Shown here: in pieces, positions 18,158 to 38,051 of the stretch
Position numbering within the stretch: the stretch's first letter is position 1
Layout of the letters: each line of letters starts with the position of its first letter
Source: Thiotrichales bacterium
Lineage (GTDB): Bacteria; Pseudomonadota; Gammaproteobacteria; HK1
Reading direction: 5' to 3'
Assembly (NCBI GenBank): GCA_026709935.1
Contig: JAPOSC010000004.1
Location: forward strand, 124,789 to 188,788
DNA length: 64,000 bases
Made by a program: the position numbers and the translations under genes
Notes under the pieces: generated by a model
What the model saw: only the letters and a program-made list of their open reading frames with translations
Told to the model about the DNA's origin: nothing
Databases searched by the model: none

Positions 18158-18228
18158 GCCTCGTCCTCCACCTGCTGCTCGGCCTGCTCACCGGACGGGT
18201 CGCGGGAACCGTGCGCCTTGCGGTTCAT
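18154..18228 (-). other. 24-codon mini frame made by a junction duplication between drmA and drmB
   Basis: Between drmA and drmB there is an ATG-to-TGA frame of 24 codons (start MNRKAHG, end QQVEDEA). Its start overlaps the drmA stop (ATGA) and its stop overlaps the drmB start (ATGA). Its first codons resemble the DrmB start (MTRKGHG) and its last resemble the DrmA end (RQVEDGA). The simplest reading is a 71-bp tandem duplication of the drmA/drmB junction. It probably relays ribosomes rather than making a functional peptide. Confidence 0.7.
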
Positions 18229-21200: not shown

Positions 21201-21635
21201 CACGGAGGACGACTTGGCGTCGGCATCCTCACTCGGTATCAGTGCGTAGTCCGCCCATCGAACGGTGACGTCGACCGTGCCCGCGTCCTCCGGGACCAGG
21301 AAGCTCAGACCCATGGACGATGGGAAGAAGCCCTTCTTCGCGGACTTGCGCTCCTCCGTCGACTCCTCCGCGAGCCCGGCCGCGTCCGGGGTCTCGTCGA
21401 GATCGTCCTCCTCGTCGGCGTCGGCGCTCTGCTCCGGTGGTGCACCAGCGGGGATCAGAAAGCCCGTGAGGTACCAGTTCGAGGGACGCACCCGTCCGGG
21501 CAGGCACTCGGAGGCGAGCGCGTGGCCGGCGCCGGGGCCGATCAGGTCGAGGTTCAGAGCCTCGACGAGGCGTTCGCGGACTTCGAGGGAAGTGGTGGGA
21601 GCGCCTGGCGCCGAAGCTGCAGGATCACTGTCCAT
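18225..21635 (-). CDS. drmA: DISARM helicase DrmA
   Basis: The 1,136-residue SF2-like helicase has Walker A FPTGGGKTEAY, a DEXH motif in QDELHLISGPLG, motif III STATV, and a C-terminal helicase part with ATNMISVGLDIPR and QATSRVGR. A Cys pair (CPWCG, later C..FEC) suggests a zinc insert. DrmA is the core DISARM ATPase and acts with DrmB. The ATG at 21635 is chosen because the family-like region starts at MDSDP; an earlier start at 21779 would overlap the PIN gene. All motifs look intact. It lies 74 bases after the PIN gene on the same strand, so it may share that transcript. Confidence 0.93.
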   Translation of the reverse strand: MDSDPAASAPGAPTTSLEVRERLVEALNLDLIGPGAGHALASECLPGRVRPSNWYLTGFLIPAGAPPEQSADADEEDDLDETPDAAGLAEESTEERKSAKKGFFPSSMGLSFLVPEDAGTVDVTVRWADYALIPSEDADAKSSSVWQREQHERTVPVSTAHADHYSIADSDGLSLHAEVRPIEAAGIAGIPTGTRSVSVFLVNRRRTDGDNPDLAYAFQAGIEVRSGRAFVARPDPRGAQAETWDDRVADLHYADTPEYATGHGVSADWEIVDDACRCLRTAWIPRASVEKTETRAVPAVELSMDALGALNDGVAATAALRPLVGEYREWIADQRETTKPLQGARRDTAEGLLLRAGHAADRIEQGITLLGSDEDALDAFRVANRAVSRALRQRLGAQFGDGESPQWRAFQLAFILLNLPGLADPLDPNREIVDLLFFPTGGGKTEAYLGLAAFTMVLRRLHNPGQHGVQGAGVSIIMRYTLRLLTLDQLARASGLVCALELEREADAARYGAWPFEIGLWVGKAATPNLMGHKGEKRSDSARAKTRQFKANPKGNPSPIPLESCPWCGTRFEPESFTLLPDDDRPRELRIVCANFECDFSGDRPLPILAVDEPIYRRLPAFLIATADKFASLPWVAETGKLLGGARRFDETGFLGASEPSGGQRLGRPLLPPDLIIQDELHLISGPLGTMVGLYEAAIEALCLRETDGREIRPKIVASTATVRLAQNQVQALFARPLTEVFPPPGPNRHNSFFARSVPVERTAGRLYLGITSPGRNPKVLMRKVWLALMGAAERAYRDAGGHRNASNPADPYMTVLGYFNSLRELGGARRILEEEVRNTIKQYGTRKRTNEPRGLFQDRRTFSEVVELTSRVSTSQVADARRRLERPFHEAQRVDCAIATNMISVGLDIPRLGLMVVLSQPKTHAEYIQATSRVGRDDRRPGLVVTLLNAHKPRDRSHYERFRHYHETFYRSVEVASVTPFSARALDRGFSGALVGLARHADPALTPPRGVEQIEVVRATMEHRLLDTFRERINQQSFTDEAEREERLRSVQNRVVDLLDAWHKVVDDYRQTGVAVQYQRYELGSPAPLLREMLDKDFESPHHRKFRVNRSLRDVEPVVDLFLRDLTGRQVEDGA

Positions 21636-21709
21636 TTCTCGAACCTCTGTCGCCTTGTCACTGCCACCTGGCCGGACACGGGTGCCAATGGAGGCGCTCG
21701 GGGCGCTGG

Positions 21710-22216
21710 TTACTCGTTTTCCACAAGCGCGGCGTAGCGTGTCAAGCGAGCCTGGACGTCTGCCTTCGGCAGCCTGCATCTCGGATGCACGATGATCGCT
21801 TCGAGACCGTCACGTAACTGCCGGGCCGACGCGCTGGCAGTCTCGAGCATCATGTCCATCAGCCACAAGACACCGTGGCACTTCACGTGCTCGGAAACCG
21901 CGAGTCTGCGCAATTCGCGGTCGCCGGTAAGGAGTATCCAATCACCGCTTGCGGCGAGAGTGAATGCGAAACAGTCGGGCAGGGAGAGTGCCGGATGCTG
22001 GTGCCGATACTCCAATGCCTGCATTACTCCATCCCCGTCCAATTCCGCGATGCGCAGTCCCAGAGCGCAGAGCCTGTCGCCGCCGTGGTTCTTCAACTCC
22101 CGGTCGTAGAGCAAATCCGGGACGGTAAACTGGAACGGCATACGGAACGTGGCGTCGAGTAGCGAACCACGCTCCAGATCGACAAGCGCCGAGGTATCGG
22201 AGACCAGTACTCTCAT
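21710..22216 (-). CDS. PIN-domain protein, partner of the HTH-ImmA regulator
   Basis: The 168-residue protein starts MRVLVSDTSALVDLERG, with the first PIN aspartate in DTSALVD. Further acidic residues appear in LSLPDCFAF and LLTGDRELRRLA, the usual PIN metal site order. PIN proteins are RNases, often toxins. Here it sits 19 bases after the HTH-metallopeptidase gene, a common toxin-antitoxin-like pairing, and 74 bases before drmA. Whether it acts as a toxin, a defence effector or a helper is not shown. Specific substrate unknown. Confidence 0.8.
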   Translation of the reverse strand: MRVLVSDTSALVDLERGSLLDATFRMPFQFTVPDLLYDRELKNHGGDRLCALGLRIAELDGDGVMQALEYRHQHPALSLPDCFAFTLAASGDWILLTGDRELRRLAVSEHVKCHGVLWLMDMMLETASASARQLRDGLEAIIVHPRCRLPKADVQARLTRYAALVENE

Positions 22217-22235: not shown

Positions 22236-23318
22236 TCATGCCGTTACGCTCTCCGGCGGTTCATTCATGCGACGGTCCAGCTCTCGGACCGAGATACCCA
22301 GCAACTCGGCCGCCTTGGGTTCGGAGATCGCGCCCTCGGCCAGGGCACGCAGGCACAGGCGCTTGAATCGTCTCGGTTTCTCTCCCTTCCTGATGGCGAG
22401 CGGTTCTTCATAAGGCGGGTCGCGCCAGCCGAGTCGCTTGTATTCGTCAAATAATCGACCGAAGAGCGCCCGGCTGAAGATGCCAAGGTCCTTGCACCGG
22501 TACGTGAGGGCTTGCACGCTCACCCCGAACAACTGCTTGAGCTCGAAGAGCTCCCGCCAGCCAACCGACGTCCGACGTTTGCCGACCTCGGACCACAGCG
22601 CTTCGGCCGGCATGAGGAACGCGCCCGCAAAACGGTGCGCGGCCTTCTCTCCATCCACTCTCTTGCCGACTACCGAGAGGACCATGTGGCCGAGTTCGTG
22701 CGCGATCGTGAATCGCTGCCGCTCGACCCAGTGGGTGCTGTTCATGACGATGACCGGTAGCGTATCTCCGCGCGTTCGGCGCACACGCGCCGTCAAGCCG
22801 TCGATACTGTCCGCGAGAGCAACGGACAGCACCTTCACTCCACGCCCCTCCAGCACCTCCACCAGATCGGGGACCGGCTCGATGCCGAGACCCCAATGGT
22901 CGCGCAGAGCACGAGCTCCTCGATCGGCCTCCCCGAGATCATTCACAACGGGGTAGGGAGCATCGCGGGGCTTGTCCCAGTCGACGCTGGGTAGGCCGAG
23001 CAACTCCTCGACCTGGAGATACCCTTCGAGCATGCGCAATACCTGTGCCTCGACTTGCGCTTCGTCGCGTTTGCTCGTGGACGCCTTCTTCCTGAAGTCG
23101 ACGGCCTCGAGCACCATCTCCTCGTCGCCGACCAGATAGTCAACCGAGACACCCAGTGCATCGGCCAGCGTGATCAGAACGCTGGAGCCCGGCATGGACT
23201 CATCGCGCTCGTACTTGCCGATCGCCTGTGCCGTGACGAGGTTTCCGATTGCCCCCTCCAACCCTCTGAGTGACAACCCTGCAGCGGTACGAGCGAGCTT
23301 CAGTCGTCGTCCGATCAT
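22236..23318 (-). CDS. Fused XRE-type HTH and ImmA/IrrE metallopeptidase regulator
   Basis: In this 360-residue protein, residues 1-65 form an XRE helix-turn-helix (LKLARTAAGLSLRGLEGAIG, then AIGKYERD). HELGH at 207-211 is the zinc-binding HExxH motif of the ImmA/IrrE family, with a likely third ligand in GEKAAHRF near 224. The C-terminal 50 residues resemble a second small DNA-binding helix pair (AEGAISEPKAAELLGIS). ImmA/IrrE peptidases relieve repression after damage or infection by cleaving a repressor. In CBASS loci, separate CapH (HTH) and CapP (peptidase) proteins play this part; here the two activities are in one chain. It diverges from the CD-NTase gene across an AT-rich operator. Confidence 0.88.
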   Translation of the reverse strand: MIGRRLKLARTAAGLSLRGLEGAIGNLVTAQAIGKYERDESMPGSSVLITLADALGVSVDYLVGDEEMVLEAVDFRKKASTSKRDEAQVEAQVLRMLEGYLQVEELLGLPSVDWDKPRDAPYPVVNDLGEADRGARALRDHWGLGIEPVPDLVEVLEGRGVKVLSVALADSIDGLTARVRRTRGDTLPVIVMNSTHWVERQRFTIAHELGHMVLSVVGKRVDGEKAAHRFAGAFLMPAEALWSEVGKRRTSVGWRELFELKQLFGVSVQALTYRCKDLGIFSRALFGRLFDEYKRLGWRDPPYEEPLAIRKGEKPRRFKRLCLRALAEGAISEPKAAELLGISVRELDRRMNEPPESVTA

Positions 23319-23361
23319 CGGCTATTCCTCCAGAATTGGACAGTTTTCGAGTTTGACGGAG

Positions 23362-23400
23362 AGTTTACAGAAATATATTATTAATGGAATATCGTAAACT
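23362..23400. promoter_or_regulatory. AT-rich divergent promoter/operator with inverted repeat
   Basis: The arms AGTTTAC (23362-23368) and GTAAACT (23394-23400) are perfect complements flanking a 25-base AT-rich core (ATATATTATTAAT). It lies between the divergent HTH-ImmA gene (start 23318) and the CD-NTase gene (start 23479). The base content is strikingly unlike the GC-rich surroundings. The arms are the natural candidate site for the adjacent XRE regulator. No DNA-binding evidence exists; this is inference from position and symmetry. Confidence 0.65.
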
Positions 23401-23478
23401 AATGCCCCTTCAAGCGCGAAAGCGACCTTTGGAGGATCCAGCCACGTGCACAAGGAGCATACGTCAGAGGAAATACCG

Positions 23479-24747
23479 ATGAGCAAATTCATTTCGCGGC
23501 CCGGATCGCCGTTCGATGGCGTACTCGACTCCCTCCTGGCCGACATTTCCATACGCATCCAGCTCAGTCAGACCGACTACGCGAAGGCCGTTGACCGTTA
23601 CGAGGCAGTCAACAGTTGGATCGACCGCAAGGGCAGTCCGCTAGAGGACCGCGTGGTCGTGTTCTATCCGCAGGGCTCGATGGCGATCGGCGCCGTGATC
23701 GCGACGAGGGCGACCAGCGATGAGTTCGACCTCGACGTGGTGGCGCAGCTCGATCTGCCGAGCTGGGTGACGCCACAGCAGGTACTGGATCTGCTCTTCA
23801 AGGCGATCAATGGCGAGACGGGCTCCCGATACCACGGAAAGGTACGGCGTCGGACACGGTGCGTAACCGTCGAGTACGCCGACAACATGCACATCGACGT
23901 GACGCCTGCTATCCGTCGGACACATACGCCGGAGCGTGAGAGCTGGATATTCCACCACCGGGCGGAGGCTTCAGAGGAGCAGAGCTTCCTCTACATCGCC
24001 AATCCGTACGGATTTGCCGAGTGGTTCGAGACCAGCACGCCGCTGGACGCACATTTCTCCGACGCGTACATCGAGCGGGCTACCGCGTACGAGCAGATGG
24101 CGTTCGCGGCGGCGGAAAGCGAACCCGTGCCGACACAGCAGCCTGTCTCTCGGAAGTCGAAAGCCGTGATCGTGCTCCAACTCCTGAAACGGTGGCGGAA
24201 CCTTTGCTACGGAGACCGGGCCGGTCGGCGGCCACCCTCGATTCTGCTCTCGCGGCTGATCGCGGACGCTGCGAACCACACGGACAGCTTGTCGGAAGAA
24301 CTGCTGCACCAGGCGCGGAACTTGCTGGCGGTGTTCCAGGCGGCCGACCGCGATGGCCGTCTCGTCCACGTCACGAATCCTGTATGTGATGAGGATGTCC
24401 TGACGGATCGCTGGCCAGAGTCATCGCAGTGCCAGCGGCAGTTCCTGCACGACCTCGAGCACCTCATTCTCCAACTGGAGCGTCTCGACAGCGATTGCGA
24501 CCTTCCGGGGATGAAGGAAATCCTGGTGAATCTGTTTGGAGAGGCGCCGGCCGCGTCGGCAGTGACGGCGTTCGGCGAGGGGATGGGCCAGGCAATACAA
24601 GCAGGGCAGAGCCAGCATCGTCCGGGTTTTGGTGGTCTGGTCATTCCTGCAATCGGCCTGGGAGCACCAGCCGTGACGGCCGGATCTGTACGCACGACAC
24701 CGGCCCACACGTTCTACGGCGAAGAACGCACGAAGCAGCCGTGCTGA
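23479..24747 (+). CDS. CBASS cyclic nucleotide synthase (CD-NTase)
   Basis: The 422-residue nucleotidyltransferase has the CD-NTase active site: GS at 66-67 (YPQGSMAIG), DxD as D84 and D86 (DEFDLDVV), and a third Asp at 140 (HIDVTPA). On phage infection such enzymes make cyclic di- or trinucleotides that switch on an effector. The ATG at 23479 has GAGGAA nine bases upstream; the in-frame start at 23446 lacks one. The protein ends GEERTKQPC, without the terminal glycine that many E2-conjugated synthases have. The E2-like gene overlaps its stop. The clade (CdnA-H) cannot be set by eye. Confidence 0.9.
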   Translation: MSKFISRPGSPFDGVLDSLLADISIRIQLSQTDYAKAVDRYEAVNSWIDRKGSPLEDRVVVFYPQGSMAIGAVIATRATSDEFDLDVVAQLDLPSWVTPQQVLDLLFKAINGETGSRYHGKVRRRTRCVTVEYADNMHIDVTPAIRRTHTPERESWIFHHRAEASEEQSFLYIANPYGFAEWFETSTPLDAHFSDAYIERATAYEQMAFAAAESEPVPTQQPVSRKSKAVIVLQLLKRWRNLCYGDRAGRRPPSILLSRLIADAANHTDSLSEELLHQARNLLAVFQAADRDGRLVHVTNPVCDEDVLTDRWPESSQCQRQFLHDLEHLILQLERLDSDCDLPGMKEILVNLFGEAPAASAVTAFGEGMGQAIQAGQSQHRPGFGGLVIPAIGLGAPAVTAGSVRTTPAHTFYGEERTKQPC

Positions 24748-25211
24748 CGACCCATGCCCAGTCGGAACGCATGCGGATTGCATGGCCCGGATTTCGTGCC
24801 ATCTATACGTCAGACCGCTGGATCGGGTGGACGGGGCGACTTCGGCCACTCCGCCAATCCTATCGAATCCGGATCATCCTCAGCCTGGACCGGGATGTCT
24901 TGTGGTCCGCGATTCTGCCGTGCAATCCGCGTGTCACCGTGGAAGCCCCACTGCTGCGCGGAAGACCGGAGTCTCCTGGAGAGCCTATCCCGCACCACTA
25001 CCCGAACCGGCTCTGTTCCGAGCAACCCGTCCTCTGTCTCCATGATCCATTGAAGTTCGAGTGGCTTCCGGTTTATGCCATAGCGGACACCATTGTTCCG
25101 TGGACCATCGACTGGCTGGCCTGTTACGAGGTATGGCTCGCTCTCGGGACCTGGACGGGTGGCGGACGGCATCCTGAGCCAAGTCCGCGTCGCCATGTCC
25201 GGCGGAGGTAG
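24741..25211 (+). CDS. E2-like protein of a short type II CBASS
   Basis: The 156-residue protein (146 from the ATG at 24771) is a stand-alone bacterial E2-like (ubiquitin-conjugating fold) protein. A likely active-site cysteine lies in PVLCLHDP, followed by the family-typical ADTIVPWTIDWLACYEVW and the GTWTGGGRHPE tail. No E1 or JAB partner is encoded, which defines the short form of type II CBASS. The E2 is thought to conjugate the CD-NTase and so prime it. The GTG at 24741 overlaps the CD-NTase stop by seven bases; the ATG at 24771 is an alternative. The gene overlaps capV by 17 bases, so the three are coupled. Confidence 0.85.
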   Translation: MLTTHAQSERMRIAWPGFRAIYTSDRWIGWTGRLRPLRQSYRIRIILSLDRDVLWSAILPCNPRVTVEAPLLRGRPESPGEPIPHHYPNRLCSEQPVLCLHDPLKFEWLPVYAIADTIVPWTIDWLACYEVWLALGTWTGGGRHPEPSPRRHVRRR

Positions 25212-26319
25212 CCGACTACCGCCAAGACGCTCGTCCGGTGCCCTCGAGCATCACCGAGTGCCGCTTCCCTGGCCTAAGGACCGCCCCTTCCGCATCCTTG
25301 CCATTGACGGAGGTGGAATCCGGGGAGTGTTCCCGGCCACGTTCCTCGCGGCGCTGGAGAACCTTCATCTCGGCGGTCGTTCCGTCGCGCGGCACTTCGA
25401 TCTTATCGCCGGAACGTCGACAGGCGGCATCATTGCGCTGGGATTGGGCGCAAGGCTCCAGACCGACGAAATACGCGATCTCTATGTCAAGCGCGGTTGC
25501 GAGGTCTTTCCGCCCATCGGGGATGGGGTACTCAGCCGGGTCAAGCGTAGATGGCACGATTCACGACAGCTCTTCACGTATCGCTACAACCGTGCGGCGC
25601 TCGAGCGCGTGCTGAGCGAGTGTTTCGGACACACAATACTCGGAGACGCACAAACGCGGTTGTGCATCCCGTCAGTCGATGGCCGATACGGAGAGACATA
25701 TATCTTCAAGACACCTCACCATCCGGACTTCACCAAGGATGCAGCGGAAAGCATGACGAAGGTCGCCATGGCCACAGCGGCGGCGCCAACGTACTTTCGA
25801 CCGTTCGAGGACGCTGGATACACCTTTATCGACGGCGGCTTGTTTGCCAACAACCCCATCATGGTCGCCTTGGCCGAGGCACTGTCATGCTTCTCGGTGC
25901 CTCGCGAATGTATCCGTATTTTGAATATCGGATGTGGAACCGGAGAGTTCGTCGTTGATCGACAGCGGATGCGTGGCGGCGCCATTGCCTGGCGGAGAGT
26001 CATCGATGTGGCTATGCAGCTTCAGTCCCTTGATTCCCGCGGCCAGGCAGGTTTGCTCATTGGTGCGGAGCACATGCTCAGAATCGATCCGCACGTCGCG
26101 GGAGCAGCGATTGAACTTGATGACTGGAGACGCGCCGTACGCGAATTGGTACCTGCCGCAGAGAACGCGTCCGACGAGTGGGGCGAGACGGTGGCCGAGA
26201 TGTTTCTGACGGATGAGGTGGAGCCGTATGCTCCATGCCGATCGGACGCGGGTTCCCCGCGGCGAGTCGATGCAGCATCAAGTGCTGATGCCGGGGGAAG
26301 CCTGCACCTCGGTATATGA
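25195..26319 (+). CDS. capV: Patatin-like phospholipase CapV (CBASS effector)
   Basis: The 374-residue protein has the patatin signature: oxyanion motif DGGGIRG at 38-44, nucleophile Ser75 in GTSTG, and the catalytic Asp213 in DGGLFANNP. CapV enzymes degrade the inner membrane lipids when bound by the CBASS second messenger, killing the infected cell. Its length is close to known CapV proteins. The ATG at 25195 lies within the last codons of the E2 gene. Its 3' end overlaps the converging broken ATPase gene by about 42 bases. The C-terminal tail after SDEWGETV looks low in conservation. Confidence 0.9.
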   Translation: MSGGGSRLPPRRSSGALEHHRVPLPWPKDRPFRILAIDGGGIRGVFPATFLAALENLHLGGRSVARHFDLIAGTSTGGIIALGLGARLQTDEIRDLYVKRGCEVFPPIGDGVLSRVKRRWHDSRQLFTYRYNRAALERVLSECFGHTILGDAQTRLCIPSVDGRYGETYIFKTPHHPDFTKDAAESMTKVAMATAAAPTYFRPFEDAGYTFIDGGLFANNPIMVALAEALSCFSVPRECIRILNIGCGTGEFVVDRQRMRGGAIAWRRVIDVAMQLQSLDSRGQAGLLIGAEHMLRIDPHVAGAAIELDDWRRAVRELVPAAENASDEWGETVAEMFLTDEVEPYAPCRSDAGSPRRVDAASSADAGGSLHLGI

Positions 26320-27140
26320 AGGTTCAGACAAAGCTCCGTGTGTCCTTCCTCGTTGCCGCCTCGCTTTCTCGCGGCGTCTCGCCGCTTTCAGGTGTTCGAT
26401 GCGCAGCCGCAGTTCGCTGCCCTGGAGCACCATCTCCTTCAGTGCTCGACGCAGCACGCGCTCCACTTCCGCGTGCGTGGCGTCCTTGAACCAATCCTGC
26501 CCCGCAACATCGTCGATGGAGAACTCGCGGTGCACGCCCCGAAGCTTGACGCTCAGCAGCCGTTTCAGTTGGGGGACAGTGGGCGGTTTGAGGAACAACA
26601 CTTCCTCGAATCGCCGCCAGATGGCCGTGTCCAGCATGCTCTCGTGATTGGTCGCGGCGATGATCAGGCTTCGGCCTTCGTAAGCGTCGAGCATCTGGAG
26701 GACGGCGTTGACGACTCGGCGAAGCTCCCCATGCTCCGACGCATCCTCACGCTCCTTGCCCAGAGCGTCGAACTCGTCGAAGAGCGCAACCATGGGGGAT
26801 GCAGTCACGAAATCGAACACCTTGCGGAGGTTGGCGGCGGTCTCACCGAGGAAGGACGACACCACACGATGTCCTCGAGTCCTCGAACCGGCTCGCGGAC
26901 CGACAGCAGGGGGATGCCCCGCTCCCGGTCCTCCGGGATGGTGGCGGTCAGGTTCCGCAGCGCCGGAGAGGACGGGGGGTGGGAGCGGCCGTACAGAATG
27001 GATTCGAGGTCGCTGGCGAGCAGATGGTGCTGCTTCTGTCGCTCGTCGGCGATCACCTGCTTCGCCACGCCGCGAAAGGCATCAAGATCCCCTTCCGCGC
27101 CGGAGCGGATGAGCTGTCGAAGCAACTTGCCGTTCGACAC
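26278..27140 (-). pseudogene. Broken AAA family ATPase lacking its Walker A segment
   Basis: The 5' part (27140 to about 26867, GTG start, MSNGKLLRQLI) encodes the N-terminal region of a single-domain AAA ATPase and reads up to GLEDIV. The 3' part, in another frame (from about 26866 to 26278), continues with SSFLGETAANLRKVFDF, the Walker B region ALFDEFDALGK, and IIAATNH. In intact relatives about 60-70 residues with Walker A lie between LEDIV and the xxLGETAAxLR segment. They are missing here, and the frame shifts at the junction. A deletion with frameshift at about 26867 is the simplest reading. Such ATPases often partner a subtilisin-like peptidase; none follows here. Confidence 0.8.
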
Positions 27141-27204: not shown

Positions 27205-27534
27205 TCATGGCAGTGAGCCGGTTGCCGGGCTGATGGTGAAGGCTCCGTGGCGCTCTACGCGCCATGGAATTGTCCGCGTGGATTGTTGATCGAAACCGCG
27301 ATGGCAACCATCGGGAGGAGCACCCGCGAGTCCGGACATGTCGATGCGTTGCGTCGCTGGAATGACGACGGTCTTCGATTCGGCGTCCGTGAGAACGAAG
27401 TTGGCTATCGACGTTCGCCAGCCGCACCCCCGTATCGTCAAATGTTCGACCGTGCGGGAGCAGAAGTCGTCCATGCATAGCAGGTCGTAGGTGGGGGCGG
27501 TTGGCTGCAGTCGCGATGGGTTGGATGTGCTCAT
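27205..27534 (-). CDS. Hypothetical protein coupled to the drmMI 3' end
   Basis: The 109-residue frame starts with an ATG that overlaps the methyltransferase stop (ATGA) and begins MSTSNPSRLQPTAP. It has two nearby cysteines (LLCMDDFCS) and no motif I recognise. Its coupling to the methyltransferase gene suggests it is translated. It could be a small accessory gene or the front end of a gene cut short by the rearrangement that broke the next ATPase gene. No function is proposed. Confidence 0.45.
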   Translation of the reverse strand: MSTSNPSRLQPTAPTYDLLCMDDFCSRTVEHLTIRGCGWRTSIANFVLTDAESKTVVIPATQRIDMSGLAGAPPDGCHRGFDQQSTRTIPWRVERHGAFTISPATGSLP

Positions 27535-30032
27535 GCTTCGTTTCCATCGGCATCGTCTCCGATGTCGGATTCACGAGAGACGGCTGCGTCCCACAGGGCA
27601 CGCGATTCGACGACGGCATGGGTTCGTCCGGAACGTTGTCGGCCCGAAAGGCGGGTTCTCCTTGGGCCACGGACTCCGGGGGGCGATGCGGTCGGGTCGG
27701 TCCCGGCGCGGGACTCTTCGGTGGCGCGTTCGGCGTTGAGGGCGAGGAGCCGGGCAAGGACTTCGTCCCGGATCTCGTCGGGCCAGCGGTAGCGCCAGGG
27801 TTTCTTCCGGGTGCCCCATGTTTCCTCGTCGATCGCGTAGTCGAGGAGGAATTCGCAGTCGGTGGGGATGTCGGTCCAGCCGTAGGCGTCGAGGACGGCG
27901 CGATCCATGGCGACGTGCAGTTCGCGGAGCCTGGTGATTTCAGGGTCGGTTTCGTCGGGGTCGTGGAAGCGGTTGTAGGTTCTGGTCATGCCCTCGTCGT
28001 GCCGGACCATGAGATCCGCCCGGTAGCCATAGTAGTCGGCGCCGACGCGTTCGAGATCGGGATGGGTGTGCCAGTCATCGGGAAACGGGAACGTCTCGAA
28101 GCAGTCGGAGGGGGTGTAGCGGAGATCGTCCTTCATCGACGATCCGAGGAATCGCGCCCATATTTCGTGGGGGCGGGATTGGAGGGTGCAGAGGGCGGCG
28201 TGGGTTTCGAAGGGGAAGATGACGAGTTGTTCGCTGTACGCCATGCCGGTGGGAAGGAAAGCAAACGCAGCACTCTGGCCAACGCGGGAAATCACCAACA
28301 CACGATCGATTTCGGTAATGTCAGCGTGCAATCCTTGACGATAGGCCAAGAAACGCCACCATCTCAGTGAGGCATCGCGGTTTATATTGTTCTTTTGAGG
28401 AAGCGCAAGCCGCTGTGGTTTCACCCTCTGCTCAACGATGGCCAGAAGCTCCGACCAATCTGCTGCCACCGGTCCCGGATAGTCCACCGGCACGACGCCA
28501 CCTCGCAGCCACTCACGACGCCGGTTTTCCTCCGCCTCCGCCCACAGTTCCCCCAACTCCTCCCGCCGCAACGGCCAGTCCCGGAAGTTGATGACGTACC
28601 GGTGGTGGGCATGGGTCGGGCTCGTGTTCACCTCCTCACCGCCGATGTAGGGAAAGATCACATCTTGGTTGCTGGGATCTTCTGCGATGAGCTGGTGCAT
28701 CTCGGCGAGCGGCGATGCGACGCCCTTCTTGTCGGTGTCGTCGAACGTGAAGCCCATCCCCAGAACGATGCTGCCCTGAAAGCTCTTGCCCGCATTCGCC
28801 TCGAGCCGCGCCGGATCGTCGTGCCCGCCCCGGTGGAAGAGAAACGCGGTAATCGTGTCCACCGCCTCCCCATCAAGGCGCTTCACCCCCGGAAAGCGCC
28901 CCTTGTGTACATGCAGCACGCTCACCACCACCGCCGCGAGACCCGGCCACTTCACACGCCGTTGCGCCCCGTAGATCTCCCCGCCGTTCTTGCAGATCCA
29001 CCGCAGCCCCGTCGAACGTGTATCTCCTTGCGCGATGGTGTTGGTCGCGATCAGCCCGGCCGTGCCGCCGGTGCGCAGCAGTCCGAATGCACGGCGGAAG
29101 AAGTGGGCAACAAGGTCGGCGTTGCCGTGGCTCTCCTCGTGCATCTGCTTGAGCCAATCCGGATAGCCGGCGACGTTTGCAGCCGCGACGGTGTTCTTGC
29201 CGGCGAACGGCGGATTCCCCACCACCGCATCGAACCCCGGGTTCTCCCGTTCGAACACCTCCGGGAACTCGATCTCCCAGTGGAACGGCGCGAGCGGTGG
29301 CTCCTTGCGTCGCAGGTCCTCCAACCAGCCCACGTAGCTGCGCATCTCGCCGCGCTGCACCGCATCCCCGAACTGTCGGCGAAAGTCCTCGCGCTGCTTA
29401 GGCTTCGCTCCCTCGAAGAATGTGGCCAGCGCCAAATCGCCGAGCAGACGCACATTGCCGGTCTCGCGATCCGCATCGTCGTAGAGCTGGCGCAGTTCCA
29501 GCTCCGACACGGAGTCGTCCGCCTCCCGGATGCGTCGGCGCAGTTCCCGCGCCCTTGCCAACTGCTCGCGCGCCCGCATCGCCTCGAATCCGGCCTGGAA
29601 CGGCTGGGCGTCGTCCTTCCAGTGGAACGCTTCGAGTTGCCGTCGCGAGAGCCCGACCAGAGCGTCTCCGGGACGCAGCGCATGATCCAGGAAGGTGAGA
29701 GGGTGGTCCCTGGCCAGGGTAACGAGCCAGAGCGAGAGCTTGGCGAGGTCGACCGCCTTGGGGTTGCGGTCCACGCCGTAGAGGCAGCGTTGCGCGACCT
29801 GGCGGCGGGCGAAGACGATCTCGTTCTCATCCGGCGGAATCTCGGGCACCGCGTCGTGCGCCTGCCACGCCTCCACCAGCGCATCCCCGAGCTGGCGGCA
29901 GGCTTCGACCAGGAAGGCGCCGGAGCCCATGGCGGGGTCGCACACCTTGAGGTCGAGTATCTGCTCGGGGTGGGGCGGCCCGCCCGCTTCGGTGCGCAGG
30001 CGGTCGAAGATCGGCGTGAGCGCGGTGCGCAC
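27531..30032 (-). CDS. drmMI: DISARM methyltransferase DrmMI, C-terminal part (after in-frame TAG)
   Basis: This holds the catalytic half. SAM-binding motif I DPAMGSGAFL is near residues 33-42 and the adenine methyltransferase motif IV NPPF follows (VVGNPPFAGKN). The frame is open from 30086, directly after the TAG at 30087, and reads RRRSGSHYTPRELT before the GTG used here at 30032. It is in the same frame as the upstream part, so the two halves are one gene with one stop codon between them. DrmMI marks host DNA so DISARM spares it. If translation restarts at 30032, the YTP region just before would be lost. The C-terminal 60 residues are Arg/Ser-rich. Confidence 0.85.
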   Translation of the reverse strand: MRTALTPIFDRLRTEAGGPPHPEQILDLKVCDPAMGSGAFLVEACRQLGDALVEAWQAHDAVPEIPPDENEIVFARRQVAQRCLYGVDRNPKAVDLAKLSLWLVTLARDHPLTFLDHALRPGDALVGLSRRQLEAFHWKDDAQPFQAGFEAMRAREQLARARELRRRIREADDSVSELELRQLYDDADRETGNVRLLGDLALATFFEGAKPKQREDFRRQFGDAVQRGEMRSYVGWLEDLRRKEPPLAPFHWEIEFPEVFERENPGFDAVVGNPPFAGKNTVAAANVAGYPDWLKQMHEESHGNADLVAHFFRRAFGLLRTGGTAGLIATNTIAQGDTRSTGLRWICKNGGEIYGAQRRVKWPGLAAVVVSVLHVHKGRFPGVKRLDGEAVDTITAFLFHRGGHDDPARLEANAGKSFQGSIVLGMGFTFDDTDKKGVASPLAEMHQLIAEDPSNQDVIFPYIGGEEVNTSPTHAHHRYVINFRDWPLRREELGELWAEAEENRRREWLRGGVVPVDYPGPVAADWSELLAIVEQRVKPQRLALPQKNNINRDASLRWWRFLAYRQGLHADITEIDRVLVISRVGQSAAFAFLPTGMAYSEQLVIFPFETHAALCTLQSRPHEIWARFLGSSMKDDLRYTPSDCFETFPFPDDWHTHPDLERVGADYYGYRADLMVRHDEGMTRTYNRFHDPDETDPEITRLRELHVAMDRAVLDAYGWTDIPTDCEFLLDYAIDEETWGTRKKPWRYRWPDEIRDEVLARLLALNAERATEESRAGTDPTASPPGVRGPRRTRLSGRQRSGRTHAVVESRALWDAAVSRESDIGDDADGNEA

Positions 30033-30086
30033 GATCGGCTCGGTGAGTTCACGGGGGGTGTAGTGCGAGCCGGACCGGCGTCGCTC

Positions 30087-31853
30087 CTAGCTCGGCTGCA
30101 GCACCATCGCACCCCTGGGCACGAGGTCCGGGGTCGCATTCCGATCGACGACGGGATCGAGGGCGGCGTGCAGCGCTTCGATGCTGTCGGCGTCGCGCGC
30201 CGCCCGCCTCAGCCGATCCGTCAGCTTGCGATCGGTGCGGTCCTGCAACCGCCTCGCTCGACTGGCGGGCGGCTGGTCGAACAGCGCATTCAGGTCGACC
30301 GCGGCCGGAGCGCCCTGCTTCTTCGCCGCCTTGATGGCGACGGTGAGACCCATGGCCGTCTCCAGGCGGAAGCCCATCATCGTCTCGTAGACGGAGCCGA
30401 CATGCTCGACGTCCAGGGCCCGGTAGGAGATGCGTTCGCCGTCGAGCACGATGAGCTTCTCCAGCACCCGGTAGATGGTGCCGTCGGGGACGAGGGGCGG
30501 ATCGATGCGCTCGTCGATCTGGCGCGCGCCACCCTCGCCGCGGCCTTCGAGGAACCGGTACCGGTCGGGGTCGAAGAGGGCGCCGTGACGCGGGGGGAGC
30601 CGCATCGCGCCCGCCCCGGCGCCGTCGTGCACCATGCGGAACAGGGCGAGGAGCTGGGCGTATCCGCCGAAGCGCTGATCCATGGTGTCCGGGTGGAGCG
30701 CCGCGTCTTCGCGCAGCCGCTCGTGGAGCCCGGCGAGCGAGTAGGCGCCGAGGAAGGTCTCGTCCTGCGGCAGCATGTCCCGCTCCTCGGCGTAGAGCAG
30801 GAACACGAGCCGCAGCACCACGGTAAGCAGCCCGCGGTAGACCTCGTCGGGGTTCTCCGCGAGCGGTTCGCGCAGAAGCGTCCCCCGGGAGGTGTCATGC
30901 GCGGCCTGGAATCCGCGCAGCAACTCGTAGAGCGCGTGCAGGACCTGCTCGGCGAGGTGCTCGCTCACCTCGTTCTGGTACTTGCGGCTGTCCTCGAGCA
31001 GGGCGGCGAGGCGTTTCTCGCGCGGCACGCTCAGGAGCCGAGTCTGGCCGAGGAGCAGGCGCATGGCGGTCGAGATCGGCCGCCCCGCGGTGGGCAACAT
31101 GTCAGCGACGCGAAAGTCGAGCCACCCGGAACTCTCGCCCCGCGGCGCGGAGATGAGACGCAGGGCGGCGCCGTTGAAGAGCAGTCCCGCGGCCACGCCG
31201 GTGTGGCGCAGGAGGCGTTCCATGCGGCCGTGGGGCGAGGCTTCGAGGCCACCGTTTGCCCGTGACCGGCCGCGCGTCACGTGGTCGAAGTTCTCGCCCG
31301 GCTCGCACACGCGTACGAGAAGCTGCCAGGACGAGGCACCGTTCGGGGCGCTGCTTCGCGTTCTGCGTCCGGACCGTCCGCGGATCCGCCCGGATCGGTG
31401 GCGCCGTAAGCCGGCCGCATCCTCTCGCACCGCGGAGGCTGGTCGTTGCGAGGAAACCGGCGGTCTCGCGGCGGAACGTCGTACCGGTTCCACCCGGACC
31501 GCAAAATCCGGGCGCAGAACCTCGCCTCCGTCGGGAAGCACCGTTTCCAGTTCGGCCGGAATCGGAGCCTCCTCCGTGCCCGCGTAGCCGGCCGGCGAGA
31601 AATTCCACCCCAGCACCGAGCGTGCGAACGAGCGAAAGTCCGTCAATCGGGGCTCGGCGTCCGGGACGCCTTCCGCTGCATCGCGTCCCCGATCCTCCAC
31701 GCACCCGCGGAGCAACTGCTGGCCTTCGGCGTCGCGCCGATTCAGCAGCGCGCCCGCCTTGACGAGGGCCGGGGCGGAGACGACCAGTCCGGTGGGATGG
31801 ACGAATCCGAGCCACTCCAGGTGGGCGGCGATTTGCGGATCGAGTCGGGCCAT
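30087..31853 (-). CDS. drmMI: DISARM methyltransferase DrmMI, N-terminal part (ends at in-frame TAG)
   Basis: The 588-residue frame holds the N-terminal region of the large Eco57I-like methyltransferase: HLEWLGFVHPTGLVVS, then WQLLVRVCEPGE, then a helical region with LLYAEERDMLPQ and YETMMGFRLE. It ends GAMVLQPS followed by TAG; the next codons continue ERRRSGSHYTPRELT in the same frame. A GAG-to-TAG change would explain the stop. Without readthrough it has no SAM or catalytic motif and would be non-functional alone. The 5' end lies 3 bases after the VapC-like gene stop. Confidence 0.82.
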   Translation of the reverse strand: MARLDPQIAAHLEWLGFVHPTGLVVSAPALVKAGALLNRRDAEGQQLLRGCVEDRGRDAAEGVPDAEPRLTDFRSFARSVLGWNFSPAGYAGTEEAPIPAELETVLPDGGEVLRPDFAVRVEPVRRSAARPPVSSQRPASAVREDAAGLRRHRSGRIRGRSGRRTRSSAPNGASSWQLLVRVCEPGENFDHVTRGRSRANGGLEASPHGRMERLLRHTGVAAGLLFNGAALRLISAPRGESSGWLDFRVADMLPTAGRPISTAMRLLLGQTRLLSVPREKRLAALLEDSRKYQNEVSEHLAEQVLHALYELLRGFQAAHDTSRGTLLREPLAENPDEVYRGLLTVVLRLVFLLYAEERDMLPQDETFLGAYSLAGLHERLREDAALHPDTMDQRFGGYAQLLALFRMVHDGAGAGAMRLPPRHGALFDPDRYRFLEGRGEGGARQIDERIDPPLVPDGTIYRVLEKLIVLDGERISYRALDVEHVGSVYETMMGFRLETAMGLTVAIKAAKKQGAPAAVDLNALFDQPPASRARRLQDRTDRKLTDRLRRAARDADSIEALHAALDPVVDRNATPDLVPRGAMVLQPS

Positions 31854-31856: not shown

Positions 31857-32282
31857 CTACGCCGGGGTGAGCAGGGGGATCACCCGCCGCCGCGCCTGCC
31901 GATAAATGTGGAAGTCGGAATCGAGGGTCATGATCGATGCGTGGTCCGTCCGTTCGACAAGCCTGACCAGGCAGGCGTCGGCGAACGACATCGGGACATC
32001 GTGGTAGCGACGCATCAGCCGGCCGATTGCGGCCGCGTCATCACTGGAATTCAGGAGCCGAACGATGCGCAGCACGCCGCGTTCGACGAACCTCACCGGA
32101 AGACTGGGGTCCGCGCCGCTACGTTGCAGCAGAAATGATGCTTCCGAAAGCACGGCCTCGCAGGTAAGCAGAGGTGCCGCCAGCATGTCGAACTGTCGCC
32201 GAGCCCAGTCGTGGTGCGCCTCGTCCGCATCGAGCAGCGCGACGATAGGACCCGTATCAACGACGACGGTCGGCAATGCCAC
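31857..32282 (-). CDS. VapC-like PIN-domain toxin
   Basis: The 141-residue PIN protein starts (GTG at 32282) with VALPTVVVDTGPIVALLDADEAHHDWA. The acidic site is formed by D in VVVDTG, E in CEAVLSE, and the D pair in SFADACLVRL and LTLDSDF, the usual PIN order. VapC toxins are RNases that cut tRNA or rRNA. The gene overlaps the antitoxin 3' end by 26 bases, as is typical of vapBC operons. It sits directly before drmMI on the same strand. Confidence 0.82.
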   Translation of the reverse strand: MALPTVVVDTGPIVALLDADEAHHDWARRQFDMLAAPLLTCEAVLSEASFLLQRSGADPSLPVRFVERGVLRIVRLLNSSDDAAAIGRLMRRYHDVPMSFADACLVRLVERTDHASIMTLDSDFHIYRQARRRVIPLLTPA

Positions 32283-32535
32283 GATGCGCGTCCTGGTAGA
32301 CGGCCTCGTCGAGCAGATGCCGATTCGTCGCCAGATCCGGGCGTCCGCTGCGGACCGCACCAACGAGATCGCCTGCCAGTCCGGCACAGCTCGGCGGCGC
32401 AGCATCCGCGTCGCGGGTCAACGCTCTCTCGATGATCTCTCGCACTAGGGAAGATCGGGTCACGTTGCGTCGCCGCGCCTCGCTCGTGAGCGTGGCGTGG
32501 AGTTCGGTCGGCAGCTTGACGGTGAGGATTTTCAT
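32257..32535 (-). CDS. Ribbon-helix-helix (CopG-type) antitoxin
   Basis: The 92-residue protein starts MKILTVKLPTELHATLTSEA, a ribbon-helix-helix strand and first helix, followed by TRSSLVREIIERAL. This fold is common in VapB- and CopG-type antitoxins that bind and repress their own promoter. The remainder is a flexible tail that would bind the toxin. It overlaps the PIN toxin gene by 26 bases. The ATG at 32535 lacks a good ribosome-binding site. The 258-base gap upstream (32536-32793) holds only divergent promoter space. Confidence 0.8.
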   Translation of the reverse strand: MKILTVKLPTELHATLTSEARRRNVTRSSLVREIIERALTRDADAAPPSCAGLAGDLVGAVRSGRPDLATNRHLLDEAVYQDAHRGIADRRR

Positions 32536-32793: not shown

Positions 32794-33903
32794 ATGCTAC
32801 AGACGCTTGCAATTCGCGGATTCCGTGCGTTCGAGTCGTACCGGTTGACCGATTTGGCCAGAGTGAACCTCGTGGTCGGCCGGAACAACTGCGGGAAGAC
32901 ATCGGTTCTCGAGGCCATTGAGCTCCTCGTCTCCGGGGGGCATCCCGCCGTCTTCTACGACTCGGCCCGACGACGTGGTGAGATGGGTGTGCCGTACGCT
33001 CGCCGAGTACGCGAGCGCCCGACCGATGTTTCGCATGTCTTCTTCGGCCATAAATTCGACCTCGGCACGCATTTCGAACTGTCTTCGGACGGCGGCAAGT
33101 ACACGTTGTCGGTCAGGGTGCAGTCGCTGGACGAGGTCGGCGAAGACTCCGAGTACTGGGACCGGAGAAGAAAGCAGTGGCTACAACGAGGGTTGTTCGA
33201 CCAAGATGAAGAAGCTGTGCCAGTGCTCGGTCTGAGCATTGATGGAAGGCCGTCGGGGAGGCAGGTGGACTTGCCCGTCATGGACGACGGTACCGTACTG
33301 TTCGAGCCTTACCCTCGCTCGATACGCAATGGGGCGTACGGAACACCGGTTCACTTTCTGACGTTGGACTCATTCGATCCAGCCTCCATGGGGGGAATGT
33401 GGGACACGGTCCTGGCCGAGGGCCGCGAGGCAGAGATCGTCGATGACATGCGGCTTCTCGAACCCGATCTCGATTCAATCCATTTCTTGACGAGCGGCAG
33501 GTTAAGTAGCGGCATTCTCGTCGGTCTCCGCCATGGGGGTCGCCGACTGCCAATCGGCACGTATGGCGACGGTATGCGGCGCCTGCTGGCGCTCAGGCTT
33601 TCCTTTGTCGGAACGGCAAACGGCTTCCTCTTGATCGACGAGATCGATACGGGCCTGCATTGGACGATCATGGAAGAGATGTGGCAGTTCGTGGTTGAAG
33701 TGGCGCGAAAGTCGAATGTTCAGATCTTCGCGACCACGCATAGCTACGACTGTATCCAGGGGCTCGGTTCGTTGATCAAGTCCCGACCTGATCTCAAGGA
33801 AGAAGTGTCCATCCAAAAGGTGGATACGTCACTGAAGCAGGCAGTGTGTCTCCGAAGCGATCAGATCAGGATCGCTATGGAGCAGGACATCGAGGTCCGC
33901 TGA
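32794..33903 (+). CDS. AAA ATPase (OLD/ABC-like) of a two-gene ATPase-TOPRIM module
   Basis: In this 369-residue protein, Walker A GRNNCGKTSVLEAI is at about 29-42. Walker B LLIDEIDTGLHW and the switch-like ATTHSYDC lie in the C-terminal part, with a signature-like GDGMRRLLAL before them. This is the SMC/Rad50-like ATPase fold of the OLD family. It overlaps the next gene by one base (TGATG), which encodes a TOPRIM protein, so the pair resembles an OLD nuclease split into ATPase and TOPRIM chains. Its strand is opposite to the drm genes that flank it. A defence role is likely from context but unproven. Confidence 0.8.
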   Translation: MLQTLAIRGFRAFESYRLTDLARVNLVVGRNNCGKTSVLEAIELLVSGGHPAVFYDSARRRGEMGVPYARRVRERPTDVSHVFFGHKFDLGTHFELSSDGGKYTLSVRVQSLDEVGEDSEYWDRRRKQWLQRGLFDQDEEAVPVLGLSIDGRPSGRQVDLPVMDDGTVLFEPYPRSIRNGAYGTPVHFLTLDSFDPASMGGMWDTVLAEGREAEIVDDMRLLEPDLDSIHFLTSGRLSSGILVGLRHGGRRLPIGTYGDGMRRLLALRLSFVGTANGFLLIDEIDTGLHWTIMEEMWQFVVEVARKSNVQIFATTHSYDCIQGLGSLIKSRPDLKEEVSIQKVDTSLKQAVCLRSDQIRIAMEQDIEVR

Positions 33904-34568
33904 TGCCGACTGTCGAACGCTCCACGCTGCACGTCGAAGGCACGGACGATGTCCATGTCGTCAAGCATCTCTTGCTCCGGCACCAAATCGACTGTCCGCT
34001 TGAGAGGGATCCGCGTCCGGGATGCGAATTCGCCCCGAATGCTCCCGAAATACGAGGAGCCGGCGACCGGAATAAGGTACTCGACAGGATCGAGCCGGCC
34101 GTTCGTTTGAGTAACGGCCGGTCAGTGGGGTTCGTTCTGGACGCGGATGCGGAACCCCAAGATCGATGGCGCGCTGTTTGCGGCCGACTTCAAGGGTTCG
34201 GACTCGATCTGCCGGATCGGATTCCGCTCGGTGGGTTTGTTCACGACGTCGCGGAATTCGGAGCGCGGCTCGGCGTCTGGCTAATGCCGGACAATCAACG
34301 AGAAGGCGCTGTGGAGCAATTCCTGGCGGATCTCGTCGACGACAATGACACTCTGTTCCCGATCGCCACAAGATCCACGGAGGAGGCCGTGGAAAGTGGC
34401 GCCGAGTTTCCCGAAGTCGATCGCGAGAAGGCTGTTCTACACACATGGCTTGCGTGGCGGAAAGAACCTGGACGTCCCTACGGCACAGCCATCAAGGCGC
34501 GATATTTTCGCGACGACAGCCCCTCCGCCCTGGCTTTCGTCGACTGGTACAAGCGCGTTTTCCCGTAA
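33903..34568 (+). CDS. TOPRIM-domain protein (DUF3226-like), partner of the AAA ATPase
   Basis: The 221-residue protein starts at the ATG in the TGATG overlap (33903). HVEGTDDVHVV at 10-20 supplies the TOPRIM glutamate (E12) and FVLDADAE at 77-84 supplies the DxD pair (D80, D82). These form a metal site for phosphoryl transfer on nucleic acid. The arrangement resembles other split ATPase plus TOPRIM defence pairs such as PARIS, though the TOPRIM family here looks like DUF3226. It ends 40 bases from the converging drmD stop. Confidence 0.78.
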   Translation: MPTVERSTLHVEGTDDVHVVKHLLLRHQIDCPLERDPRPGCEFAPNAPEIRGAGDRNKVLDRIEPAVRLSNGRSVGFVLDADAEPQDRWRAVCGRLQGFGLDLPDRIPLGGFVHDVAEFGARLGVWLMPDNQREGAVEQFLADLVDDNDTLFPIATRSTEEAVESGAEFPEVDREKAVLHTWLAWRKEPGRPYGTAIKARYFRDDSPSALAFVDWYKRVFP

Positions 34569-34607: not shown

Positions 34608-37600
34608 TCAATTCGACTCCGGCCACAGATACACGAGCCCCACCGGTTCCACCCGCGTCCGCTGGATGTCGTAGAAGCGCCGGATGCGCTCCGGCTCCTG
34701 CTCGATGTCCGCGTCGAATTGCTCAAGGCGCCGTTCCCAGTGACGCATGTTGGCTTCGAGCTGCTGCCGTGCGTCCCGGTCGTCGCCGAAATCCATGGCG
34801 ATCTGCCTGAATTCACGCCGGTGCCTCTCGATCTCCACCATCACCCGGCCACGCTGCCGCTCCAGCGTCTCGTGGAGCAGTTTCGATTCGCGCTCACCGC
34901 GTTCGATCAGCGCTTCGGCCGCGGCGTGGGCGGACTCCTTCGCCCGTGGTTCGAGGTAGCGCAGCAACTCTTCGATGTCGCGCGGAGCGGCGTCCAGCAG
35001 CCGGCGCTGCACGACCTCGTCGGGGGCTGAACCACCGCCGCCCAGCGACTCTTCGAGCAATGCCAGCGAGCGTGTCTCCGCCTCGCGGGCATAGGCCCGC
35101 AGTGGTTCCCGGCGAAGCGCGGGTTCGGTCCACCGGGCGGTGATCGGCACCAGCTCTTCGTGCAGGCGTTCGGCGCGACGACCGTAGAGCGAGAGGCGAC
35201 CGAGCAGCACCACTCGCGGAACCGAGTCCCTTGTCTGCGCGAGGCACGCTCGCGAGAGGTCGTGGTGGATGAACCCCTGAGCGCGGAACCGGGCCAGCAA
35301 CCGTTGCGCGACCCGTTGCTCCAGGTGAAGGTGCACGGTGTCCTCGCTGAGCATCCCGGAATCCTCGAAGATCACCGGCCGAATCGGTGCGTCGCGGCGC
35401 CAGTCCGCGAGCTTCTGGTCGGTCTTGCGAGGCTCGCGCAGCGTATCCAGGGTCGCGGCCCAGCTCGCATCGGTCGCTGCCCGCCGGTCGAGGGCGGGGA
35501 AGGTCCAGATCGTGCGGCCGTCCTCGTCCCGACCCTCTTCGAGTGGTGGTGCGCCCAGCAGCTCGAGGGAGCACGAGAGCGCCTCGCGAAACGGCACGGC
35601 GTCGAACTTCGCCCAGTTCCGGGAGCGCTCGAGAAGCGTCTGACAGCGATCGATCTGGACGAGCAGGTCTTTCCGGCGCTCGCGGGCGGATTCCAGCTCC
35701 TCGCTCGTCGCTCGCTTGCGGCCATCGTCGAGGTCCAGCGCCCGGATGGCGTCTCTGAGCGCATCGGCGTCTTCGTGACGGATGCCGCCGCGGAGCCTGT
35801 GCTCCACGTTGTCGTCGATGACCTTCGACAGGCTACCGAGCTCCCGCCTGATGGTCTCGGTCTTGCGGACGAGCACCTCCAGCACCCGGTCCTCGGCCCG
35901 CTGCGGGAGGACGAAGTAGTGGCAGTTGACCTCCGCGGCCGGCTGGAGCTTGCGGTCGATGCGGCCGTTGCGCTGCTCGATGCGGCCCGGATTCCAGGGC
36001 AGATCGAAGTGGAAGAGGTCGGCGCAGTGGGCCTGGAAGTTCAGGCCCTCCCGGGCGGCGTCGGTGGCGATCAGGATGCGCAGAGGGTCCTTCGCGGGGT
36101 CCGCGTTGAACCGGCGCTGGATCGTCTTGCGCCGGCTCCCGCTCGTCAGGCCGTCGATGACCTCGATACGCTCGTCGGCGCGATCGGTGTCTTCGATGGC
36201 CTGCTCCAGAATGTTCTTCAGGTAACGTTTCGTCCCCTCGCGGTTCTCCGTGAAGATCAGGACGCGACGCAGGTTCCAAGCGGGAGGATCCCCGGCCGGC
36301 GCTTGCCCGAAGGGCGGCAGCTCGGGACATTGATGCTCGCGGATCCAGTCGATGAGCCGGCGGGTCTTGGCGTCCGGACGATGGCGGGACGCCTCGGCCA
36401 CCGCCTGCATACGGTCCAGGAGCAGTTGCTCGTGCGCCCGAAGGGCCGCGACAGCATCGCGAGCAGAGTTGGCTCCGGCGTCCTCTCCGGGGTCCGACGC
36501 GACACCGCGCCCCCACCCGGCTCCCGTCTCGCCGCCGAAGTCCGCTCCGCCATCGCCCGCGGACTGCGTTCCGGCGCCAGGTCGGTGGTCCGCCTCGGTG
36601 GCGGTCAGGGCCTCGATCTGCCGACTCTCCTCCGCTTCACCCTCCTCTCCCGTCCACTCTCCGCGTTCGTCGTCGGCATCCGGCGGCGTCACGAAGAGTG
36701 CGGCATCGCGTTCGCCGATATCCGGCAGTCCGGCGGTGTCCGTTTCCACCGTTCCATCCGCCTTCGCCCAGTGGCGTTCGACCGTCTTGCGGTGTACCGC
36801 CAGGCTGCGTGCGAACGCCTCGATGGACGACAGCAGCCGCTGTTGCAGCCCCACCACCAGCAGGCCCGCCGCGGCTCGAACCTTGTTCGAGGCGTGCTCG
36901 TGCCGGCGTTCCCGAACGGTGCGGTATTCGTCGAGCAGCGTCGAAAGCACCAGTTCCGGGGCGTCCGGTGGCAGACCGTCGATGATCATCGGTTCGACAT
37001 TGCGCCGCGGGAAGCCGCCGCGAACCTCGCGGATGTCCTCCTTGAGCCGGCGCACCATCACATCGTCCAGCACCCCCTTGCCCCGCACCTTGACCCCGCG
37101 CGTGAAACGGTACGGATCGAGCAGTTCCAACAGGGTCGAGAAGCTGTTCGAGTGGCCGTTGTGCGGGGTCGCGGACAGGAACAGGCGGTGCTCGAAACGC
37201 CCGGCCAGGTCGCGGATCGCGCGGGTGAATTTTGTCTCGATCCCGTAGCGCCCTCCGCTCGCGGGGGCGGCGTGATGGGCCTCGTCGAAGATGAGCATGC
37301 TCCCCGGCAGCATCAGCCCCAGCCACTCGCGCAGCGGGTCCGCGTAACCCGGGTCGATCAGGAGGTTGTGCGAAACCAGGAAGCGGCTGTGGGTGCGCCA
37401 GGGGTTGACCCCGAACCCGCGCTCCCGGCGCATGCGCGAGAGATACGCCCGATCCAGAATCTCGAACAGAAGCCCGAAACGGTCTTCCAGCTCCCCCTTC
37501 CACTGCTCCAGCACCGAGGGCGGAGCCGCGACCACAATCGTGTTCACTTTCCGGCGCAGCAGCAACTCGCGGGCGATGAGACCCGCCTCGATGGTCTTGC

Positions 37601-38051
37601 CGAGCCCGGTGTCGTCGGCGATGAAGAGGTTGACGCGCGGCAACCGGAGCGCCTTGCGCAACGGTTCCATCTGGTAGGCGTCGATGCGGATTCCGGCCCG
37701 GAACGGTGACTGGAAGAGGCTCGGGTCGGTCGCGGTCACGCAGTGCCAGCGCAGCGTGTGCAGGAAGGCCGCGAACTGCCGAGGCGAGTCGAAGCCTCTG
37801 GCCGCGAGGTCGGTCCAGCCTTCATCCGCCAGAATTCGGCGGTCGAGCTCGTAGTCCCAGAAGACCGAGAGCGCCTGCCCCTGCGAGTCGTCCTCGGCGC
37901 AGGCGAGCCTCACGACAGCGGATTCCCCGGGTGCCAGCGGCTCGACGACCCCCTCGACGAGCCACCGCCGGGAGCGCACATGGACCAGCTCACCTTCGGT
38001 CGGCGGCCGCGCGGGAAGTTTGGCGGATTTGCCGTTCACACGCCCGATCAC
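34608..38051 (-). CDS. drmD: DISARM component DrmD (SNF2-like helicase)
   Basis: The 1,147-residue helicase has Walker A DDTGLGKTIEAG at about 146-157 and motif II DEAHH near 256-260. SATPHNGHS follows (motif III), and the C-terminal helicase domain has ILIATDAAREGLNFQ and RIEQRNGRIDR. A long coiled region near the C-terminus (HETLERQRGRVMVEIERHR) is present. DrmD defines class 1 DISARM together with DrmMI. The GTG at 38051 overlaps the DUF4387 stop (GTGA); a GTG four codons later is possible. The gene is intact. It is separated from drmMI by the ATPase-TOPRIM and VapBC modules. Confidence 0.9.
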   Translation of the reverse strand: MIGRVNGKSAKLPARPPTEGELVHVRSRRWLVEGVVEPLAPGESAVVRLACAEDDSQGQALSVFWDYELDRRILADEGWTDLAARGFDSPRQFAAFLHTLRWHCVTATDPSLFQSPFRAGIRIDAYQMEPLRKALRLPRVNLFIADDTGLGKTIEAGLIARELLLRRKVNTIVVAAPPSVLEQWKGELEDRFGLLFEILDRAYLSRMRRERGFGVNPWRTHSRFLVSHNLLIDPGYADPLREWLGLMLPGSMLIFDEAHHAAPASGGRYGIETKFTRAIRDLAGRFEHRLFLSATPHNGHSNSFSTLLELLDPYRFTRGVKVRGKGVLDDVMVRRLKEDIREVRGGFPRRNVEPMIIDGLPPDAPELVLSTLLDEYRTVRERRHEHASNKVRAAAGLLVVGLQQRLLSSIEAFARSLAVHRKTVERHWAKADGTVETDTAGLPDIGERDAALFVTPPDADDERGEWTGEEGEAEESRQIEALTATEADHRPGAGTQSAGDGGADFGGETGAGWGRGVASDPGEDAGANSARDAVAALRAHEQLLLDRMQAVAEASRHRPDAKTRRLIDWIREHQCPELPPFGQAPAGDPPAWNLRRVLIFTENREGTKRYLKNILEQAIEDTDRADERIEVIDGLTSGSRRKTIQRRFNADPAKDPLRILIATDAAREGLNFQAHCADLFHFDLPWNPGRIEQRNGRIDRKLQPAAEVNCHYFVLPQRAEDRVLEVLVRKTETIRRELGSLSKVIDDNVEHRLRGGIRHEDADALRDAIRALDLDDGRKRATSEELESARERRKDLLVQIDRCQTLLERSRNWAKFDAVPFREALSCSLELLGAPPLEEGRDEDGRTIWTFPALDRRAATDASWAATLDTLREPRKTDQKLADWRRDAPIRPVIFEDSGMLSEDTVHLHLEQRVAQRLLARFRAQGFIHHDLSRACLAQTRDSVPRVVLLGRLSLYGRRAERLHEELVPITARWTEPALRREPLRAYAREAETRSLALLEESLGGGGSAPDEVVQRRLLDAAPRDIEELLRYLEPRAKESAHAAAEALIERGERESKLLHETLERQRGRVMVEIERHRREFRQIAMDFGDDRDARQQLEANMRHWERRLEQFDADIEQEPERIRRFYDIQRTRVEPVGLVYLWPESN

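Follow-up and report, generated by a model that had tools for sequence, protein, structure and literature searches.

A probable loss-of-function allele of drmMI, cut by one in-frame stop codon, in an otherwise ordinary class 1 DISARM locus

Does a DISARM locus whose methyltransferase gene is interrupted by a stop codon still encode that enzyme, and, if it does not, what restrains the remaining proteins from acting on the host's own DNA? This question is raised by drmMI in the window, that is, the whole 64,000-nucleotide stretch analysed here (Thiotrichales bacterium, contig JAPOSC010000004.1, positions 124,789 to 188,788). PADLOC matches in the window comprise DrmD, DrmMI, DrmA, DrmB and DrmC; DrmE was absent from the matches for the subset of window ORFs that was scanned. 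The features of the locus are collected in Table 1.

The frames 31853-30087 and 30086-27531 belong to a single minus-strand reading frame, in which the one interruption is a TAG read at 30089-30087 (CTA on the plus strand, 30087-30089). Apart from this codon, the frame is open throughout from 31853 to 27531 (1,440 codons). The DNA at the lesion is AGCTAGGAGCG, and the protein around the stop reads ...DLVPRGAMVLQPS, stop, ERRRSGSHYTPRELTEP.... The PADLOC DrmMI model PDLC02643 (1,347 positions) matches both halves consecutively, which supports the identity of the gene as the DrmMI methyltransferase. The 3′ half also gives Eco57I/MmeI-type methyltransferase and target-recognition matches, and aligns weakly with the solved type IIL enzyme MmeI (5hr4). 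Numbered on the read-through protein, the stop falls at residue 589, just before methyltransferase motif X, which starts at residue 595; motifs I and IV start at 639 and 880, respectively. The earlier note had described a single in-frame TAG that splits DrmMI and separates its N-terminal part from the SAM and NPPF motifs, and this description holds in each respect. The locus therefore lacks the intact DrmMI methyltransferase expected of class 1 DISARM, since codon 589 is a stop ahead of motif X. A candidate frameshift in the N-terminal part of drmMI was rejected; the insert of about 45 residues (residues ~120-165) is in frame and lies in a linker that is variable across all relatives. No second copy of the drmMI junction was found by exact DNA search of viral contigs.

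Table 1. Features of the DISARM locus and its neighbours, in positions of the window.
Feature	Position	Strand	Remarks
drmD, SNF2-type helicase	34608..38051	-	1147 aa; uninterrupted
PDC-M38A (AAA ATPase) and PDC-M38B (DUF3226) pair	32794..34568	+	between drmD and the PIN-drmMI unit
PIN-domain gene	31857..32405	-	directly upstream of drmMI; own stop TAG, 3 nt before the drmMI ATG
drmMI, 5′ part	30090..31853	-	588 aa from ATG 31853; N-terminal domain, lacks motifs for SAM binding and catalysis; PDLC02643 8-510; weak MmeI_N match
In-frame TAG in drmMI	30087..30089	-	homologous codon encodes Glu or Asp in 71/79 relatives
drmMI, 3′ part	27531..30086	-	851 codons; motif X GSHYTP, motif I DPAMGSGAF, motif IV NPPF, target-recognition region; PDLC02643 551-1326
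IetA-like AAA ATPase remnant	26389..27140	-	lies just downstream of drmMI; deletion of the Walker A region, frameshift
CBASS cassette	22236..26319	.	four genes, between drmMI and drmA
CBASS patatin-type effector	25093-26319	+	
CBASS E2	within 24429-25211	+	
CBASS cyclase	23446-24747	+	
CBASS HTH-M78 regulator	22236-23318	-	
drmA, helicase	18225..21779	-	1184 aa; uninterrupted; matches Serratia DrmA 7s9v_A over 1046 residues
drmB (MZB/DUF1998)	16355..18157	-	600 aa; uninterrupted; matches 7s9v_B
drmC, PLD-type nuclease	15576..16736	-	model match begins at ORF residue 129

The homologous codon is a sense codon in all 79 relatives that could be read at this site, encoding Glu in 52, Asp in 19 and other residues in 8 (GAG in 34, GAA in 18, GAC or GAT in 19, others in 8). 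The TAG has thus replaced a conserved acidic codon. None of the 79 has a TAG here. Homologues that are naturally two proteins at this point had been named as evidence that would overturn the claim of a lesion; they were looked for, and none of the 79 is split there. The drmMI copies of the same genus and family are uninterrupted. Outside the stop, the window DrmMI deviates at none of 220 near-invariant columns (at least 97% conserved), which is the joint lowest number among 61 sequences, thus indicating that the gene was under full constraint until very recently. The lesion would then have arisen very recently or be polymorphic or, less likely, reflect a consensus error. Judged from the alignment, such clean conservation would be expected of a lesion that is young or polymorphic, of a consensus error or minority allele, and of a stop that is read through.

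We consider it probable that a recent nonsense mutation inactivated the adenine methyltransferase of this class 1 DISARM locus. Translation of drmMI would stop after 588 residues and yield a product in which the motifs for SAM binding and catalysis are missing. The downstream half would have no usable start before motif X; the only start codon listed near its beginning is the GTG at 30032, downstream of that motif. No active methyltransferase would thus be expected, and DrmD, DrmA, DrmB and DrmC would remain coded.

A less likely explanation is that the TAG arose artificially, through sequencing, assembly or a mixture of strains, and that drmMI is intact in living cells. A single-base error would be enough, the assembly is fragmented (88 contigs) and 95.9% complete, and the remainder of drmMI is perfectly conserved. 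However, consensus substitution errors are rare, drmMI has been lost recurrently elsewhere, finished isolate plasmids included, and the neighbouring gene carries a real deletion and frameshift. Read from its sequence, this neighbour, the IetA-like ATPase remnant, is a definite pseudogene, which indicates that decay at this locus is real and not merely a matter of base calling. No ietS stands beside it in the window; the relative L052 has an intact counterpart of this ATPase gene, adjoining ietS. An ORF at 26338-27216 (+) was rejected as a gene, being the shadow of the IetA remnant on the opposite strand.

Suppression or recoding could instead allow the TAG to be read through and full-length DrmMI to be made, perhaps at a low level. 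This would be consistent with the wholly conserved downstream half and with TAG being a rarer stop in the genome, where it ends 20 of 127 long open frames, some of which may be spurious. Against it, the check for amber-suppressor tRNAs proposed in the earlier note revealed no CUA anticodon among the 45 tRNA genes of the assembly (95.9% complete), and release factor 1 is present, intact and above the curated cut-off, which together indicate that the TAG acts as a stop. The PIN gene adjacent to drmMI itself terminates with TAG, and the codon is not shared by any relative at the drmMI site; read-through is therefore very improbable. A 102-base gene for a Leu-like class II tRNA, missed by ARAGORN (G000:C27:1225-1326, L125), was rejected as a suppressor, as its anticodon loop is TTCCCAA and not CTA; no Leu(TAA) tRNA was found in the assembly that carries it. 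A genome-wide count of stop-split genes (400 kb, codon-usage score) was dropped, as real and shadow ORFs were not separated in this GC-rich genome.

It is scarcely credible that DrmMI functions as two polypeptides, with a C-terminal half produced by re-initiation complementing the N-terminal half: the stop does fall between the N-terminal domain and the methyltransferase core and the frame is open in both halves, but the nearest listed start excludes motif X, no relative is broken at the same point, and the breaks in L012 and L039, approximately 150 residues upstream, resemble slippage or phase variation rather than a conserved split.

The rest of the operon bears out the earlier statement that drmA, drmB and drmD are intact, and drmC is uninterrupted as well. 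Compared with relatives, DrmD, DrmA and DrmB have their full length and show no lesion, and DrmA and DrmB match their solved Serratia counterparts in phmmer searches (E = 3.3e-176 against 7s9v_A and E = 2.3e-95 against 7s9v_B). As in class 1 DISARM systems such as that of Serratia sp. SCBI, the five core genes lie on one strand in the canonical order drmD-drmMI-drmA-drmB-drmC; the window differs from these systems in the in-frame TAG of drmMI and in that two opposite-strand defence cassettes split the operon. In 27 of 63 loci, 1.5 kb or more separates drmMI from drmA, and the defence genes found in this gap differ by locus: CBASS in the window, and in relatives DRT reverse transcriptase, short Argonaute-associated, IetS, HEC-01/PDC-M28, NsnB-like and cytosine methyltransferase genes. 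A second slot for defence genes lies between drmD and drmMI. Nested operons of this kind occur at 15576-38051 of the window and in the relatives L003, L021, L025, L032, L052, L054, L149, L150 and L154.

The combination of a lost methyltransferase with intact DrmA, DrmB and DrmD had been presented as a puzzle of self-attack. The in-frame TAG and the intact partners are supported, but the puzzle is weaker than it was made out to be. In a 2021 preprint on class 1 DISARM, both methylase genes were reportedly removed without autoimmunity. A trigger loop keeps DrmAB inactive; DrmAB binds ssDNA and 5′-overhang DNA, which displace this loop, but not blunt dsDNA, and its ATPase activity on methylated DNA is lowered rather than abolished (Bravo et al., PMC9142583). 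With DrmAB gated by DNA structure and methylation only damping its activity, loss of the methyltransferase would remove a brake, not the main lock. Under the preferred reading of a recent nonsense mutation, restraint toward host DNA would be provided by this structure gate (the trigger loop and the requirement for a 5′ overhang or ssDNA) and not by methylation. We infer a genuine allele in the population, an inactive protein and a DrmAB that is still active and harmless. Natural drmMI-broken loci with intact partners occur in isolates.

Analysis of other loci revealed broken drmMI in 17 of 110 (window excluded), compared with 9 of 242 copies of drmD, drmA and drmB, in a sample that is anchored on drmMI, consists mostly of draft and metagenome assemblies and leaves outright gene losses uncounted. 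Disruptions were scored against trimmed panels of intact proteins, and the partner denominators were tallied by hand: drmD is broken in 6/98, drmA in 3/78 and drmB in 0/66 (drmA and drmB together, 3/144). Fisher tests of drmMI gave p = 2e-4 against the three pooled partners, 9e-5 against drmA and drmB, 0.045 against drmD and 0.006 per residue. Of the 80 loci that 84,980 genomes yielded, 11 have a broken drmMI, as do 3 of 17 non-redundant plasmid loci and 3 of 12 loci sampled from the phylum, class and family of the window (frameshifts in G239 and G600, an IS66-like insertion in G648); drmMI is intact in one viral contig, and G295 was counted as intact, its two TAA codons falling outside the aligned gene. 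At least five lesions are impossible as base-call errors, namely IS4 in L183, an IS66-like element in L154, truncation beside IS1380 in L180, ISAs1 in L178 and a 500-residue deletion in L038. Five of the 17 loci have a broken drmD or drmA as well. These counts suggest that, with the attack helicases preserved, drmMI is the component of DISARM that is lost most frequently. In Sinorhizobium meliloti LMB1 pC (L187), drmD carries breaks in several frames, whereas drmMI and drmA are whole and drmB is lesion-free over the covered part, thus indicating that drmD can be the lost gene as well. A second, degenerate DISARM locus was seen in a same-family genome (L153; G012:C1:1958000-1977900), with two TGA and one TAG in its drmMI fragment and a TAG in its drmA fragment.

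Small changes are known to switch off a defence methyltransferase in the Streptomyces Pgl system, where pglX, encoding the methyltransferase PglX, is phase-variable. In the window, a PglX-like defence methyltransferase is likewise probably switched off through a small change, but the lesion is a substitution without a repeat tract, and so not a reversible slippage switch; no tract for phase variation was found at the lesion, and the window drmMI has no homopolymer of nine or more. The relative L039 does have a C16 run inside drmMI (7556-7571), with the two gene parts out of frame, and by its sequence this run looks like a slippage (phase-variation) switch of a DISARM methyltransferase. As in the window, drmMI is broken with drmD, drmA, drmB and drmC complete in Nostoc sp. 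C057 plasmid p057_A (NZ_CP040282, L183), where the break is an IS4-family insertion instead of a TAG. The remnant in Cutibacterium acnes DSM 16379 also has a broken drmMI in a defence island, but there a 32.5-kb island has split the gene into three parts (PMC7365801), whereas the window has one nonsense codon and uninterrupted other core genes.

Taken alone, a probable loss-of-function drmMI allele in an otherwise ordinary class 1 DISARM locus is a modest finding; recurrent loss of drmMI with retention of drmA and drmB is the part worth pursuing. We propose only tentatively that class 1 DISARM in nature often lacks its adenine methyltransferase, with drmMI as the most dispensable of the core genes, either lost or switched off (by IS, deletion, nonsense mutation, frameshift and one C16 tract) while drmA and drmB are kept. 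The tally provides a list of natural methylase-minus DISARM loci, finished isolate plasmids included, for direct testing. If the allele is real, the organism offers a natural test case for whether methylation is required for DrmAB to distinguish self from non-self, and if methylation is indeed optional, DISARM would be a structure sensor on which methylation acts as an optional brake, and not an obligate restriction-modification system.
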